Shown in pieces: positions 22,322 through 33,477 of a stretch of 37,820 bases of DNA (position 1 is its first letter; every line of letters begins with the position of its first letter). Below the pieces are notes generated by a model that was not told the origin of the DNA, did no database searches, and worked only from the letters and a program-made list of their open reading frames with translations. Source of the stretch: Promethearchaeota archaeon (GTDB taxonomy: Archaea; Asgardarchaeota; Lokiarchaeia; Sigyniarchaeales; SOKP01); the NCBI GenBank assembly GCA_019894715.1, contig JAGXOA010000064.1:1-37820 (forward strand), read 5' to 3'. The translations under genes were made by a program, and so were the position numbers.

Positions 22322-22336
22322 AGGTGTTTTTTTCTG
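22322..22336 (+). promoter_or_regulatory. AGGTG ribosome site placing SMC start at CTG 22334
   Basis: AGGTG (22322-22326), seven T residues, then CTG ACA TAT ATT AAG AAA ATT. Translating from CTG restores the standard SMC N-terminus TYIKKI-x-x-x-GFKSF, which a start at ATG 22358 lacks. The GTG inside the ribosome site is out of frame. Confidence 0.6.
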
Positions 22337-25300
22337 ACATATATTAAGAAAATTTCAATGACTGGATTTAAATCATTTGGAGATCGTACAGTTACGATAA
22401 AATTATCTCAAGGATTTACATGTGTAGTTGGCCCAAATGGTGCTGGTAAGTCAAATATAATAGATGCTTTATGTTTTGCACTTGGTAGGTTATCAAAAAA
22501 AACAATGAGGGCAGAAAAGCTTGAGGACCTAATCTTCGCTGGGTCCAGAGGCCATAATCCTTCAAACCGAGCTTCAGTTACACTATCTTTTGATAATTCT
22601 GATAGTTCTCTTCCTGGAGGTACAAGTGAGTTTGAAATAACTCGTGTAGTAATAAGAGGAAAGGGAAATCAATATAAAATGAATGGAAAAAGAGTAACTC
22701 GCCAGCAAATCTTAAATGTTCTTGCTGCTGCAAATATTGATCCTGATGGAAGTAATCAATTTGTACTTCAAGGAAAAATTATGGAACTTACTCACATGAA
22801 TACTGAAGATAGAAGAAGATTTATAGAAGAGTTAATTGGCCTTCAGAAATATGATGATATGAAAGATGATACATTAAAAGAATTAGAGAAAGCAGAGCGT
22901 GATTTAGGTCAATTTGAAGCAATCTTTAAAGAAGTATCTTCTCAATTAAAAAAGGTTGAAAAAGAAAAAAATGATGCAATAGCTTGGAGAGAATTGGATC
23001 AGAAAATCAAAGACCTCAATGTTAAACTAATTGCTTTAAAAATATCAAAATTAAAAGAAGAAGAAGAAGCTATTGAAAAGAAAATTGAACAATCTCAAAA
23101 GCTTATTGAAGAATTTGAGGAAAAAATATCTCGTCAAGAAGAAACACTAAAACAAGAATCATTAATTATGGATAATATTCAGAAAACCATAAATGAAAGA
23201 GAAATAGAAAGAGATAGCATTAATGAACAAATAACTCTTTTAAAAACAGAACTATCCTCAAATCAAACAACATCTAATTTAGCTATAAAATCAATTGAAA
23301 AACTTAAAAAAGAAAAAAATAAACTTGAAAATCTTCAAATGGTGTTGGAAGATGGACAAAATTATGATTCTCTTATTAATGATATAAAAACTGAAATAGA
23401 TAGCATTAAAATTAAGATAGAAGGGGCAAAGAAAGAAATAGAGGTAAAGCAACAAAACCAATTAAAGATAGATGAACAATTAAATAATACTGAAGAAGAA
23501 AAATCCATATTAAAAGCAGACATTTCCAAATTTAAACAAGAGATCTCATCAAAAGAAGCTAGTATTAATGGTTTAAAAGAAAATATAAAAAAAAATATTA
23601 ATAAAAAAGAAAAAAGAGAAGAAGAATTAAGCAATCTTAAAGGAGAAGCTGAAAGTGTTGAAAACGCTATAAAATTAGTTAAAGATGAGGAAAACAAAAT
23701 AAGAAAAGAAATTGATGTTATCAAATCCCAAATATCTGAAGAAAATGAAAATAGAAAGGATTTAGAAAATAATATTAATTCGAAACAACAAGAGAAAAAT
23801 AAAATAAATTCAAATATCTCTGAAATAAAATCAACATTATCTTCAATTAGTACTGAAATTAAAATGCATAAGGAAAATATTCTGAATTTGGAGAATAAAA
23901 AACAAATAATAAATCAAAAAATAGAAGATATCAGCAAGGGAACTGAAATAGAAAAAGCCTTAAAAAAAATTCTTGAAAATAGAAAAAATTTAAATCAAGA
24001 ATTAGAAGTTCTTAAAAAAAAAAAGAAAGAAGAGGATTTTGAATTTAGGAAAAATGAAAAGAGTTTAGAGCTCTTAAAGATGAAGCAAAATGCATTTCTT
24101 TCTGAAATAAATGATAATCAATCTAAAATAAGCAATTTAGAAACTAAAACTAAATTATTCCAAAATGAATTAACTAAATTAGAAAGAGAAAATAGAAACT
24201 TAGTTTCACATATTGAAGACCTAAATAAAAATATCGAAGAAAATGATAAGAATATAGAAAATTTAAACTATAGAAAAGATAATGTTATCCACAGGCTTGA
24301 GGAATTAAATGCTGAAAAAAAAAGAATTCAAGATCGAATTAATAATGCTGAACAAGAGTATGAAAAAGATAAATCTGATATTAATGGGATTTTACAGATT
24401 TTAAACATGTTAACTCAGAATATAAATATCTCTGTAGAGTCTATAAAAAGTAATATTCAACAATCTAATTCAGAAGCAATTGATTTTTCTGCTGAAGATT
24501 TTAAAAAATTTATTTTAGATATCATTGATATGATGAAAACGATAGAAGATGTGAAAAATGAATCAAAAACCGAAGAAATTACTCCCGTTCTTGATTCTAT
24601 GATTCAAACTCTATCGTTATTTAATGATAATGCTGATCAAACAATAGAACAATTAGTTTATAGAATAAAAGAATCTGTTGATGTTGCTGTACAAGATTCT
24701 ACTTCAAATTTTGACCATTTTGTTCAAGATTTAATGGAAATATTAGAAAATGTTCACCTCTCTCTTAGAAAATTAACTGTTTCAAAGAGTCAAGATCTAT
24801 ATAAACAAGTAGAAGAAATATCTGAAAATATCCAAGAACAAGCTGAGGATGTAAATGAAATTATGATGAATATATCGGAATTACAAATTCAAAATATTCA
24901 TTATAATAAAGATAAAGTCACCTCACAAAGTAAACTCGAAGAAATTCTCAAAAGGATTAGTGAATTGAATGAAAAAAATAATAATTCGAATAAAGAAATA
25001 GAAGAGAGAAATACAATTATAAAAGAAAGAAAAACCCAAGAAGAAGAAATCAATAAGGAAATAGATGATTTAAAAAAAATTAAAGAAGATCATTGGAGAA
25101 TTTCATCAGAAATTCAAGAAGAATTGGAGGAAAAACAAAATAAAGTCTCTGAATATGAACAAAAATTACAAGATCTAAAAGGAATTGAGACTTTATTTGA
25201 AAATCTTGAAGAAATAAACCAGAATATTGAAAAGATAAAAAAATCAATTGAGGATAAAAAAATATCAATGATTGATATTGAAGAAAAAATAAAAAATAAA

Positions 25301-26779
25301 AATACAGATTTGGATACAATCCAAAATGAAATTGAAATATTAAATAATAAAAAAGAAAATTTCTGGGAAATCAATAAATCTCTGCAAGAAAAGATAGAAG
25401 AAAAAAATAAAAACCTCGAAAAAACATTAGATCGATTGAGATCATTAGAAAATATCATGAGATTGATAAATTCAATTGAAGAATTAAAAAATGAAAATAT
25501 AGAAGCAGAGAAAAAAATAAAAGAAAATAATGCTAGAATTGAAGAAGTTAAGATTAAAATAGAAAATATTCAAAAAGAAGTAGATGAAAAACAAAAAATA
25601 ATAGATGCCCTAAGAAAAGATAAATCTAAAGAGATAAAAACTCAAAAATCTGCCCAAGAATCTTTAAATAATTTAAATAAAGAATTACAAGAAACACAAA
25701 TAAAATTAAATGAATTGAATAAAAATAAGGAAAGAGAAGAAAAAATAATCTCATTAACTTCCGAAATTGAACAAACAGAAAATCAAATTAAAGATGTAAC
25801 AGTGAAAATCAAAGAAATAGAAATAAAACTAACCGAAATAAATATTAAAAAAACTGAAAAACAAAATGAAATTAATCAATATATTGCTCAAAAAGATGAA
25901 TCATGGAAAAAACAAAAGCATTATCAAAAAATCTATACTGATCTAAAATCCGATTTCTCAATGGAAAAGTCAAAATTAAATAATTTAGAATCAAAAAAGA
26001 TTATTACAAATGACCAAATTGAAACATTATTTCAAAGATCGAAAGATTATGGCTCTCTACCTCGAATTATTGATAAAATCTCTGAAAACGAATTGGAAAA
26101 AGAAATTGTTAGTACAACTAAACTAAGAGAGCTGCTTGAACCTGTGAATCTTAAAGCAATAGACCAGTATGATAATGTAAAGGAAAGGTTTGATGAAATT
26201 GATATGAGAAGACAAACTATTCAAAGAGAAAGAAAATCTATACTAGACGCAATAGACAGAATAGAACTTGAAAAAACTCAGTCTTTCATGAAAGCTTATC
26301 ACGAGATTAACAGAGAATTCTCTCAGATATTTAAAAAATTATCTCCTGGTGGGTCTTCGAAAATGATACTTGATAGACCTGATAAACCGTTTGAAGGGGG
26401 AATTAGTATTGAAGCAAGACCTAGAGGAAAAAAAATATCTTCTCTCGAAATTTTAAGCGGGGGAGAGAAAACTCTTGTCGCTCTCTCTTTCATATTCTCT
26501 ATACAGGAATTTTATCCTGCCCCTTTTTATATTTTAGACGAGATTGATGCAGCTCTCGATGGTCCAAATGTCCACCGAGTCTCTACAGTTATTCAAGAGT
26601 TCTCCAGCCAAGCACAATTCATAGTAATCAGTCACCGAGAAGAAAATATTGTCAACGCAGAAAGAATTTATGGAGTATCAATGCAAAAAAGTGGAATAAC
26701 TGATGTATTTAGTGTTGATTTAGAAAAAGAAGCTAAACGTCTTTTAGAGACAGAAGATGCTGAAGTGGTAGAAGAATAA
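22334..26779 (+). CDS. smc: SMC chromosome-organising ATPase, very long and without a recognisable hinge
   Basis: It is the structural-maintenance-of-chromosomes ATPase, the partner of ScpA/ScpB. Numbered from CTG 22334 it is about 1481 aa, against roughly 1150-1200 for typical prokaryotic SMC. The N-terminal head has Walker A GPNGAGKS (G33-S40), and VLQGKIMELTHMNTEDRRRFIEEL. The C-terminal head has LSGGE (1374-1378), Walker B YILDEID (D1402, E1403) and ISHREENI (H-loop). Between them are two coiled-coil arms of ~450-500 residues. The centre (~680-860), where the hinge should be, is helical and acidic (DFSAEDFKKFILDIIDMM) with almost no glycine and no GxxG or beta-strand pattern. No Cys hook is present. 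ScpA and ScpB lie 5 kb downstream. Confidence 0.93.
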   Translation: MTYIKKISMTGFKSFGDRTVTIKLSQGFTCVVGPNGAGKSNIIDALCFALGRLSKKTMRAEKLEDLIFAGSRGHNPSNRASVTLSFDNSDSSLPGGTSEFEITRVVIRGKGNQYKMNGKRVTRQQILNVLAAANIDPDGSNQFVLQGKIMELTHMNTEDRRRFIEELIGLQKYDDMKDDTLKELEKAERDLGQFEAIFKEVSSQLKKVEKEKNDAIAWRELDQKIKDLNVKLIALKISKLKEEEEAIEKKIEQSQKLIEEFEEKISRQEETLKQESLIMDNIQKTINEREIERDSINEQITLLKTELSSNQTTSNLAIKSIEKLKKEKNKLENLQMVLEDGQNYDSLINDIKTEIDSIKIKIEGAKKEIEVKQQNQLKIDEQLNNTEEEKSILKADISKFKQEISSKEASINGLKENIKKNINKKEKREEELSNLKGEAESVENAIKLVKDEENKIRKEIDVIKSQISEENENRKDLENNINSKQQEKNKINSNISEIKSTLSSISTEIKMHKENILNLENKKQIINQKIEDISKGTEIEKALKKILENRKNLNQELEVLKKKKKEEDFEFRKNEKSLELLKMKQNAFLSEINDNQSKISNLETKTKLFQNELTKLERENRNLVSHIEDLNKNIEENDKNIENLNYRKDNVIHRLEELNAEKKRIQDRINNAEQEYEKDKSDINGILQILNMLTQNINISVESIKSNIQQSNSEAIDFSAEDFKKFILDIIDMMKTIEDVKNESKTEEITPVLDSMIQTLSLFNDNADQTIEQLVYRIKESVDVAVQDSTSNFDHFVQDLMEILENVHLSLRKLTVSKSQDLYKQVEEISENIQEQAEDVNEIMMNISELQIQNIHYNKDKVTSQSKLEEILKRISELNEKNNNSNKEIEERNTIIKERKTQEEEINKEIDDLKKIKEDHWRISSEIQEELEEKQNKVSEYEQKLQDLKGIETLFENLEEINQNIEKIKKSIEDKKISMIDIEEKIKNKNTDLDTIQNEIEILNNKKENFWEINKSLQEKIEEKNKNLEKTLDRLRSLENIMRLINSIEELKNENIEAEKKIKENNARIEEVKIKIENIQKEVDEKQKIIDALRKDKSKEIKTQKSAQESLNNLNKELQETQIKLNELNKNKEREEKIISLTSEIEQTENQIKDVTVKIKEIEIKLTEINIKKTEKQNEINQYIAQKDESWKKQKHYQKIYTDLKSDFSMEKSKLNNLESKKIITNDQIETLFQRSKDYGSLPRIIDKISENELEKEIVSTTKLRELLEPVNLKAIDQYDNVKERFDEIDMRRQTIQRERKSILDAIDRIELEKTQSFMKAYHEINREFSQIFKKLSPGGSSKMILDRPDKPFEGGISIEARPRGKKISSLEILSGGEKTLVALSFIFSIQEFYPAPFYILDEIDAALDGPNVHRVSTVIQEFSSQAQFIVISHREENIVNAERIYGVSMQKSGITDVFSVDLEKEAKRLLETEDAEVVEE

Positions 26780-28598: not shown

Positions 28599-28720
28599 CT
28601 TATTGTAAATTAACTTTGATTAATTTAGATTGATTATCATTTTTTTAAAAAAGAAAAACATTTTACATCATCTTTAAGAGCTCTAAACTCTTTTCATTTT
28701 TCTTAAATTCAAAATTTTCT

Positions 28721-28736
28721 TCTTTCTTTTTTTTTT
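28721..28736 (+). terminator. T-rich run downstream of TFB
   Basis: TCTTTC followed by ten T residues, about 120 bases after the TFB stop. It is consistent with a U-tract terminator; background AT richness lowers confidence. Confidence 0.3.
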
Positions 28737-28811
28737 AAGAACATCTAGTTTTTGACTTCATTTTTTTCTTTATAAATAAAGGTCATATCTTTGTCTATAA
28801 TTACTAAATAA

Positions 28812-31703: not shown

Positions 31704-32699
31704 ATGAGTGAAGAAAATAAAGAAGAAGAATATAATTTTCAAGAATGGACGATAAAACAACTAAGAGATTTTTCTTATGTTAATCACATTTCTATTCCAT
31801 CTAAGTCAAAAAAAGCTGAAATAATAGAATTATTAGAAAATATAGTATCTAGTTCTGAATTTGTTGATCGAAATAAAGAAGAGCATTTTGAAGAAGAACT
31901 TATTGTTGATTTTGATGAAGATGAAGTTGCACCTCTATTTAAGAAAGAAGAAAAAGAATTGAAATTTTGGCAAAAACCTCCTTTTTCTACGTTATTAAAT
32001 TTAGAGTTGGCTAAAGACTCTGATATTGCATTCTATGATTTGTCTAATCTAGTAAATAAATTTTTTGATAAAATGCTCCATGAAGATTTTATTAATTTTA
32101 AAGTCTCTGGAATAGCTTTAAAGACTTCAGCATCACTACATCATCATAAAATAACTAGTATAATTAAGGAAGAAGAAGAGATTCAGAAAAAAGAAGAAAT
32201 TGAACAATTCAGACAAAGAACAAGAAGAGGTATACCTAAAACATTATCCCAACCTATTCAATCAAAACTTAAGATAACAAGCAAGGATGAGCTTTTTGAG
32301 GCAATGAGGGCCGCTATAATAGAGACTATGCAAAAAAAAGAGAAGTTAAGAAGGCAGAGAATAAAGAAAGAAGAGAGATTAAAAAGAAGAAAAGAGTTAT
32401 CTGCAAAAGCCCAATTACCAAAAGAGTTACTCAAACATATTACTGGTAAGGAACAAACTATTGAAGAATTACTTAATAATTGGCATAATAAAATTAAAGC
32501 AATTATTAAATTTGAGAAAAAAGATTACACAAATTTATTTGATCTTATCAAACTTATAAATAAAGATCAAGAAAGTATCTTTGGTAGAAAATATGAATTA
32601 GTAAGATTATTTCTGGCCCTAATGTTTCTTAGCACAAATAATAAAATATATCTAGAGCAGAATCAAGATTTTACTGATATTAATGTAGAATTAAAATAA
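31704..32699 (+). CDS. scpA: ScpA-like kleisin with N-terminal SAP/Rho-N-like domain
   Basis: Kleisin subunit bridging SMC heads. 331 aa. Residues 14-47 (EWTIKQLRDFSYVNHISIPS, then KSKKAEIIELL) match the helix-extended-helix pattern of SAP/Rho-N/LEM-like domains, which bind nucleic acid; this is not part of ordinary ScpA. An acidic linker follows, then the kleisin N-domain helix (DLSNLVNKFFDKML), a long basic middle (KKEKLRRQRIKKEERLKRRKE) and a C-terminal winged helix (YELVRLFLALMFLSTNNKIYLEQN). ScpB starts about 20-30 bases downstream in the usual order. Identification rests on this synteny and the kleisin ends. Confidence 0.85.
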   Translation: MSEENKEEEYNFQEWTIKQLRDFSYVNHISIPSKSKKAEIIELLENIVSSSEFVDRNKEEHFEEELIVDFDEDEVAPLFKKEEKELKFWQKPPFSTLLNLELAKDSDIAFYDLSNLVNKFFDKMLHEDFINFKVSGIALKTSASLHHHKITSIIKEEEEIQKKEEIEQFRQRTRRGIPKTLSQPIQSKLKITSKDELFEAMRAAIIETMQKKEKLRRQRIKKEERLKRRKELSAKAQLPKELLKHITGKEQTIEELLNNWHNKIKAIIKFEKKDYTNLFDLIKLINKDQESIFGRKYELVRLFLALMFLSTNNKIYLEQNQDFTDINVELK

Positions 32700-32730
32700 T
32701 AAAGAACAATTTGGCATAGTGATTAAAAAG

Positions 32731-33477
32731 ATGAATAAAAATAATGATGACTCTGAAAATAATGATCTAATTGACATTGAAACATCTCATGAAGAAGAGC
32801 AAGATTTTCAAGAAAAGAAAACGGTTGAGAATAATGAATTATCTCAAGGTGGAAATCTTAACGAGGAATCTATTCAAAACGATAATGATGATACAGTTGA
32901 CATTGAGAATGATGAACAAGAAAAAGAGGAAATTCCCTCTGAAGAACAATCTGATGAGGAAATGAGCGATATTTATAGAAATCTTGTTGAAGGTGCACTT
33001 TATGCAGCAGGAAAGTCATTATCAATTGAGGAAATTTCTACAAAAATGAATATATCGAAAGTAGAGATAGAAAAATTGCTGAATGAACTCCTTGAAATTT
33101 ACAATAACCGATCAAGTGCTATTACTATCATTAAAATAGGAGAAAAATATCAAATGCAAATAAAATCAGAATATTCTGATAAAATCTCTCAATTTGCCCA
33201 AGGTGGCGCCATATCTGAAAAATATCTAAGAACTCTCACAATTATAGCATTGAAACAGCCAATTTTAAAATCTATTGTGATAAAAATAAGAGGATCTGGG
33301 GCTTATGAACATATAAAATATCTCGAGGAAAATGGATTTATTGTTGGGATTAAAAAAGGAAGGTCAGCAGAATTATCTACGACAGATAAATATGCTGAGA
33401 TGTTTGGACTCCCCAGAGATAAACAAGAAATGAAAAAAATTATGGTTGGACAATTGGGTATTGATCAGAAATCATAA
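32731..33477 (+). CDS. scpB: Segregation and condensation protein ScpB
   Basis: Tandem winged-helix partner that binds ScpA and regulates the SMC complex. About 248 aa. The first ~75 residues are a strongly acidic tail (repeats of DDSEN, EEEQD, DDTVDIEND), followed by RNLVEGALYAAGKSLSIEEISTKM, the canonical ScpB opening, and by LRTLTIIALKQPILKSIVIKIRGSGAYEHIKYLEENGFI and STTDKYAEMFGLP in the second winged helix. The acidic N-terminal extension is unusual and could contact the basic middle of ScpA. A GTG at 32719 would add four residues. It is convergent with valS. Confidence 0.93.
   Translation: MNKNNDDSENNDLIDIETSHEEEQDFQEKKTVENNELSQGGNLNEESIQNDNDDTVDIENDEQEKEEIPSEEQSDEEMSDIYRNLVEGALYAAGKSLSIEEISTKMNISKVEIEKLLNELLEIYNNRSSAITIIKIGEKYQMQIKSEYSDKISQFAQGGAISEKYLRTLTIIALKQPILKSIVIKIRGSGAYEHIKYLEENGFIVGIKKGRSAELSTTDKYAEMFGLPRDKQEMKKIMVGQLGIDQKS

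Follow-up and report, generated by a model that had tools for sequence, protein, structure and literature searches.

The window (the whole stretch of 37,820 nucleotides analysed here, from a Promethearchaeota archaeon) encodes an SMC protein that is probably the housekeeping Smc of an Smc-ScpAB complex, with its hinge replaced by a duplicated helical tip in which two hairpins would join the SMCs tip to tip. The hingeless protein is present in 65 of the 79 genomes of the order, in most cases next to scpA and scpB, and is sister to hinged SMCs, which together argue for a housekeeping subunit whose hinge was replaced. The relevant features of the window are listed below. Residue 1 of the SMC is the Tyr encoded at 22340.

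22334-26779, + strand: SMC without a hinge, probable Smc subunit of Smc-ScpAB (about 1,480 aa)
22430-22456, + strand: Walker A, GPNGAGKSN, in the N-terminal head (residue 31; sequence inspection)
22832-24364, + strand: N-side coiled-coil arm, residues about 165-675 (heptad period 3.45-3.5; boundaries approximate)
24365-24814, + strand: tip domain that takes the hinge's position, residues 676-825 (acidic, poor in glycine, helical throughout)
24371-24544, + strand: tip repeat 1, 58 residues, 678-735 (hhalign to repeat 2)
24557-24580, + strand: predicted hairpin turn, residues 740-747 (AlphaFold2 helix boundaries)
24581-24754, + strand: tip repeat 2, 58 residues, 748-805 (hhalign to repeat 1)
24815-26269, + strand: C-side coiled-coil arm, residues about 826-1310 (conservation and periodicity; boundaries approximate)
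26453-26473, + strand: ABC signature, LSGGEKT, in the C-terminal head (residue 1372; sequence inspection)
26525-26563, + strand: Walker B / D-loop, FYILDEIDAALDG, with FYILDEIDAALD at residue 1396 (sequence inspection)
31704-32696, + strand: ScpA (kleisin) with about 90 extra N-terminal residues that are SAP/HeH/LEM-like (below the Pfam cut-off)
32719-33477, + strand: ScpB (kite; PF04079, E=7.9e-34)

The SMC gene and its heads

Read from its first ATG, the SMC frame spans 22358-26779 (+) and encodes 1,473 aa. Relatives start 8 codons further 5', with TTG in 62 of 79 instances. At that site the window has a CTG codon (22334), and a start at ATG 22358 would cut off the first 8 residues. The split ABC ATPase head is complete, with Walker A at the N end and the signature and Walker B at the C end. 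The first-pass annotation had described an SMC of about 1,480 aa with intact heads, and both the motifs and the Pfam SMC_N match (E=1.8e-58) bear this out. NCBIfam SMC models score about 600 bits (TIGR02169: 612 bits); the model of archaea-specific SMC-related proteins (NF045487) gives 146 bits, under its curated cut-off of 300. An assembly or frame artefact was considered and rejected, as was chance, because dozens of independent genomes share the hingeless architecture almost without indels.

Absence of a hinge and of a zinc hook

Pfam SMC_hinge (PF06470) does not match the window SMC even at E<=10. The sole SMC_hinge of this genome is found in a different, SMC-like protein of 1,167 aa on another contig (L104; G000:C139:29000-33300), which has a diverged hinge and the Walker A sequence GPNWSGKTS. 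Proteins of this type occur in almost all genomes of the class.

A local hinge HMM was trained solely on Asgard hinges from outside the sister group of the hingeless SMCs. The hingeless family scored at most 1.3 bits with this model, while hinged SMCs, diverged ones included, scored 34-226 bits (34-60 bits for the diverged SMCs); SMC-like paralogues reached 20-27 bits. Profile-profile comparison of the Asgard hinge with the central domain of the hingeless SMC returned a probability of 0.1%. The first-pass annotation had reported no recognisable hinge and had named a hinge-family HMM match as a possible refutation; its report withstood the search.

The N-terminal head of the window SMC holds the protein's only two cysteines (residues 28 and 45). 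The protein thus contains no CxxC, as had been noted earlier, and a Rad50 or zinc-hook identity was rejected. In another genome (G004) a 1,260-aa SMC (L079 / L182:5236-9018) has no hinge and carries a central CKTC motif (CxxC) resembling a zinc hook. Its heads fall among those of Smc and outside the SMC-like paralogues, and there are no ScpAB genes nearby. This protein is possibly an independent hinge replacement.

A conserved, duplicated tip domain

The helical acidic block pointed out by the first-pass annotation (24377-24913, residues 680-858) overlaps a conserved domain at residues 676-825. In an alignment of 23 orthologues conservation peaks at 0.65-0.72 in this domain and is mostly 0.4-0.6 in the flanking arms. 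The composition also differs: hydrophobic residues make up 34% of the tip domain versus 24.5% of the arms, and charged residues 27% versus 41%. In both tip halves the hydrophobic period is 3.65 residues, compared with 3.45-3.5 in the arms. Two-stranded coiled coils have a period of 3.5, and straight helical bundles follow the hendecad pattern, with about 3.67. In the window SMC the 150 residues of the domain contain one glycine and have a net charge of -13, so the acidic character described earlier holds. Among Pfam domains the centre gave only chance coiled-coil matches below the cut-offs, and sequence searches for PDB relatives returned generic coiled coils only.

Profiles of residues 676-745 and 746-825 were aligned by hhalign over 58 columns without gaps (98.2% probability, E=6e-14). 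Control arm segments gave at most 3% probability, with the exception of one that overlaps the tip domain itself. At the level of sequence profiles, the tip is two copies of a 58-residue unit, one per arm strand.

The AlphaFold2 model of window residues 628-880 (49 aligned sequences) consists of two continuous helices (2-112 and 121-252 of the model) and has no strand. Its mean pLDDT is 78.5, with 57-75 at the tip itself. A model led by a Sigynarchaeal homologue (about 25% identical) likewise has two helices, 2-144 and 150-306. The tip of each SMC monomer is therefore predicted to be a straight helical hairpin. Structure prediction of the monomer had also been proposed in the first-pass annotation, and neither version shows a hinge fold. 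In both cases the top Foldseek match was the chemoreceptor cytoplasmic hairpin 2ch7 (E=0.35 for the window, E=5e-4 for the Sigynarchaeal model), a helical hairpin that forms a four-helix bundle when it dimerises. TM-scores for the Sigynarchaeal tip model were about 0.35 and superpositions were poor; the likeness therefore lies in the general shape of a long helical hairpin, with no sign of common descent.

The arms of the window SMC measure about 510 residues on the N side and 485 on the C side. The arms of the hinged sister SMCs are about 360 residues long (estimated from the loci) and the arm of Bacillus subtilis Smc is 344 residues (PMC5344682), so the description of the arms as extra-long was correct. 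The Sigynarchaeal hingeless SMC is shorter (1,307 aa overall).

ScpA and ScpB

The window ScpA and ScpB, whose presence had been claimed in the first-pass annotation, were located by tblastn. In most of the relatives examined scpA starts no more than about 100 bases past the SMC stop and is followed by scpB. The hingeless SMC is thus genetically linked to both partners, and its place in this operon identifies it as the Smc of Smc-ScpAB. In the window, in its sister species and in one other genus, smc and scpA are parted by a few genes (an insert of about 5 kb). About 2 kb downstream of the window SMC gene, adjoining a TFIIB gene, there is an inverted and decayed fragment (28612-28770, -) with 3 stops and 57% identity to SMC residues 542-594 (ATG numbering). 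Its presence there suggests that it is the trace of a rearrangement, and the same event may also have parted smc from scpA.

ScpA proteins of the hingeless system are 335-398 aa long, whereas other Asgard ScpA proteins usually have 226-303 aa. The difference is an N-terminal extension of about 100 residues, and the module it carries differs by lineage. In one genus it is a helix-hairpin-helix (PF14520, E=3e-13), while in most of the family it is SAP/HeH-like, just under the Pfam cut-offs. Another lineage has a weak C2H2-like finger, and in family f3 the extension is lysine-rich. Extended ScpA loci include window 31704-32696, L130:11062-12147, L155:8495-9514 and L185:10644-11753. At L187, where the neighbouring SMC is hinged, ScpA lacks the extension. 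The hinges of other SMCs bind DNA whereas this tip is acidic; for this reason, and going by the extensions, the extended N-terminus of ScpA may have taken over DNA contact from the tip.

Distribution and ancestry

The tip profile matches 68 of 228 Asgard genomes. Within the order it was found in 66 of 79 genomes, 65 of which carry the hingeless SMC; the remaining one (G010) matches only through a protein with tandem tips. Many of the order's genomes with no match are incomplete and some hold SMC fragments. The tip itself is kept in all genomes carrying the hingeless SMC. NCBI records matched by the tip profile belong to Lokiarchaeota/Lokiarchaeia and Sigynarchaeota. The two matching genomes outside the order are G130, described below, and G090. 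The G090 match and those to cysteinyl-tRNA synthetase (487-aa frames) are weak and were rejected as chance.

By a count from the tables, about 12 of the 65 carriers have an additional, strongly hinged SMC. In the other 53 no such additional protein turned up, and the only ScpAB-type SMC detected is the hingeless one. One genome of another class (G130) contains hingeless smc-scpA-scpB on an 8.6-kb contig (C70; L171). This contig is probably mis-binned, since its ScpA and ScpB regions share about 85% identity with the corresponding regions in a genome of the window's order and G130 has its own hinged SMC elsewhere. In other Asgard families, genomes G088-G110, G115 and G120 match neither SMC_hinge nor, beyond about 60 bits, SMC_prok_A, and they appear to lack an Smc-ScpAB-type SMC.

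A tree computed on 375 columns from the two head halves places the hingeless SMCs in a single clade (support 98.6/100). Three SMCs from the same class, each 1,190 aa long, form its sister group (100/100); their hinges are diverged yet recognisable (29-47 bits with Pfam, 45-60 bits with the local HMM). The window SMC heads group with Smc and not with SMC-like paralogues. As the hingeless clade and its sister are nested within hinged Asgard SMCs, the change ran from hinge to tip. It was accompanied by growth of the arms, which had about 360 residues per strand before and about 500 after. Genomes with a hinged sister SMC (L179, L180, L181) have two ScpB-like genes, of which one adjoins a ScpA gene and the other lies upstream of the SMC.

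Proposed mechanism and alternatives

In the proposed scenario, an ancestor of Lokiarchaeales/Sigynarchaeales would have swapped its globular hinge for an unrelated helical tip, which would have arisen by duplication of a 58-residue helix, so that each arm strand came to carry one copy. The monomer would end in a straight helical hairpin. Dimerisation would proceed through a four-helix bundle, in which two hairpins probably pack together and join two SMCs tip to tip, the role of the hinge in other SMCs. With about 150 additional residues, each arm would lengthen the ring by about 20 nm (at 0.15 nm per residue). ScpA would bridge the heads, ScpB would bind ScpA and the heads would hydrolyse ATP, all as usual, and DNA contact would have shifted from the acidic tip to the extended N-terminus of ScpA. 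The fuller claim, that the duplicated-helix tip makes an SMC-SMC junction with neither a hinge fold nor a metal and that DNA binding moved to lineage-specific ScpA modules, is evenly poised.

A much-diverged hinge, which the first-pass annotation had left as an option, would lie in the right position, and even the sister hinges score weakly (29-47 bits with Pfam). A genuine hinge fold is nevertheless scarcely credible: the hinge HMM separates the hingeless SMCs (at most 1.3 bits) from the sister group (45-60 bits), the profile-profile probability is 0.1%, and AlphaFold2 gives two continuous helices with no strand in two versions that are 25% identical, and the window tip has a single glycine across 150 residues. 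It is very unlikely, if somewhat less so, that the centre is ordinary arm and the hinge was lost with no replacement, leaving merely the end of a coiled coil. The centre is helical throughout, and an SMC with no hinge has been described from ocean Actinobacteria metagenomes (PMC12153180), but the centre is set apart from the arms by its conservation, its composition and its helical period, has its own duplication and recurs as a module in another protein.

That protein (930-1,040 aa) has two tandem SMC-tip domains and is encoded in four genomes of family f3 (G008, G010, G011, G012; loci L220, L221, L222, L223, with the same proteins in L172-L175). The tip profile matches it with E=4e-20 and 1e-7, and the arm controls give nothing. 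With the local HMM the domain E-values are 1e-20 and 2e-6 in L220, and the second copy is weaker (0.002) in L223. Beyond the tip domains the chain continues as a C-terminal part that is not helical and ends in a lysine-rich tail, and the protein matches no Pfam family. It may be a single-chain copy of the SMC tip dimer. Since some relatives encode it, the tip could instead be a docking site for another protein such as this one, with no self-dimerisation and the ring closed by heads and ScpA only. We consider this unlikely: the tandem-tip protein occurs in only four or five genomes, was not found in the window's own genome and so cannot be a general partner, whereas the tip is conserved in all carriers. 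Two tips per chain would also fit a single-chain tip dimer.

Relation to known systems

The preferred reading, a housekeeping Smc with a replaced hinge, places the protein beside the Smc found in the Smc-ScpAB of bacteria and archaea (TIGR02168/TIGR02169). The two share the head motifs, antiparallel coiled-coil arms and an operon with scpA and scpB, and in the tree the protein lies within Asgard Smc. It differs in having a duplicated helical tip for SMC_hinge and arms about 150 residues longer per strand. An experimental parallel is B. subtilis Smc(Zh), whose hinge was exchanged for a Rad50 zinc hook and which supported normal growth on rich medium, so that in principle a hinge can be swapped; its authors called the nature of the Smc dimerisation domain "surprisingly uncritical" (PMC5344682). 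Both systems would have an unrelated dimerisation module in Smc-ScpAB, but the zinc hook was engineered, whereas the Lokiarchaeial tip is natural, helical and free of cysteines. Rad50 and ClsN-type archaea-specific SMC-related proteins also belong to the SMC superfamily and have another tip for the hinge; they use CxxC zinc hooks (PMC9389158), while the window SMC has no central cysteine. The ocean Actinobacteria SMC has neither hinge nor CxxC, but it comes from another lineage, and the part of its description covered here mentions no replacement domain, duplication or scpAB context (PMC12153180).

A search of open-access literature found no description of a hingeless tip-bearing SMC. Lokiarchaea are relatives of the ancestor of complex cells and are central to the question of eukaryote origin. 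A hinge counts among the defining parts of SMC condensins, and models of how DNA enters, how loops are extruded and how obstacles are bypassed assign it an active part. A whole archaeal order with a hairpin-tipped Smc-ScpAB would be the natural counterpart of the B. subtilis hinge-swap experiment. What the hinge is needed for would become directly testable by reconstitution, with the hinged sister SMCs as controls. If the reading is true, an archaeal lineage near the eukaryotes would fold its chromosomes without needing a globular hinge able to open or to bind DNA.
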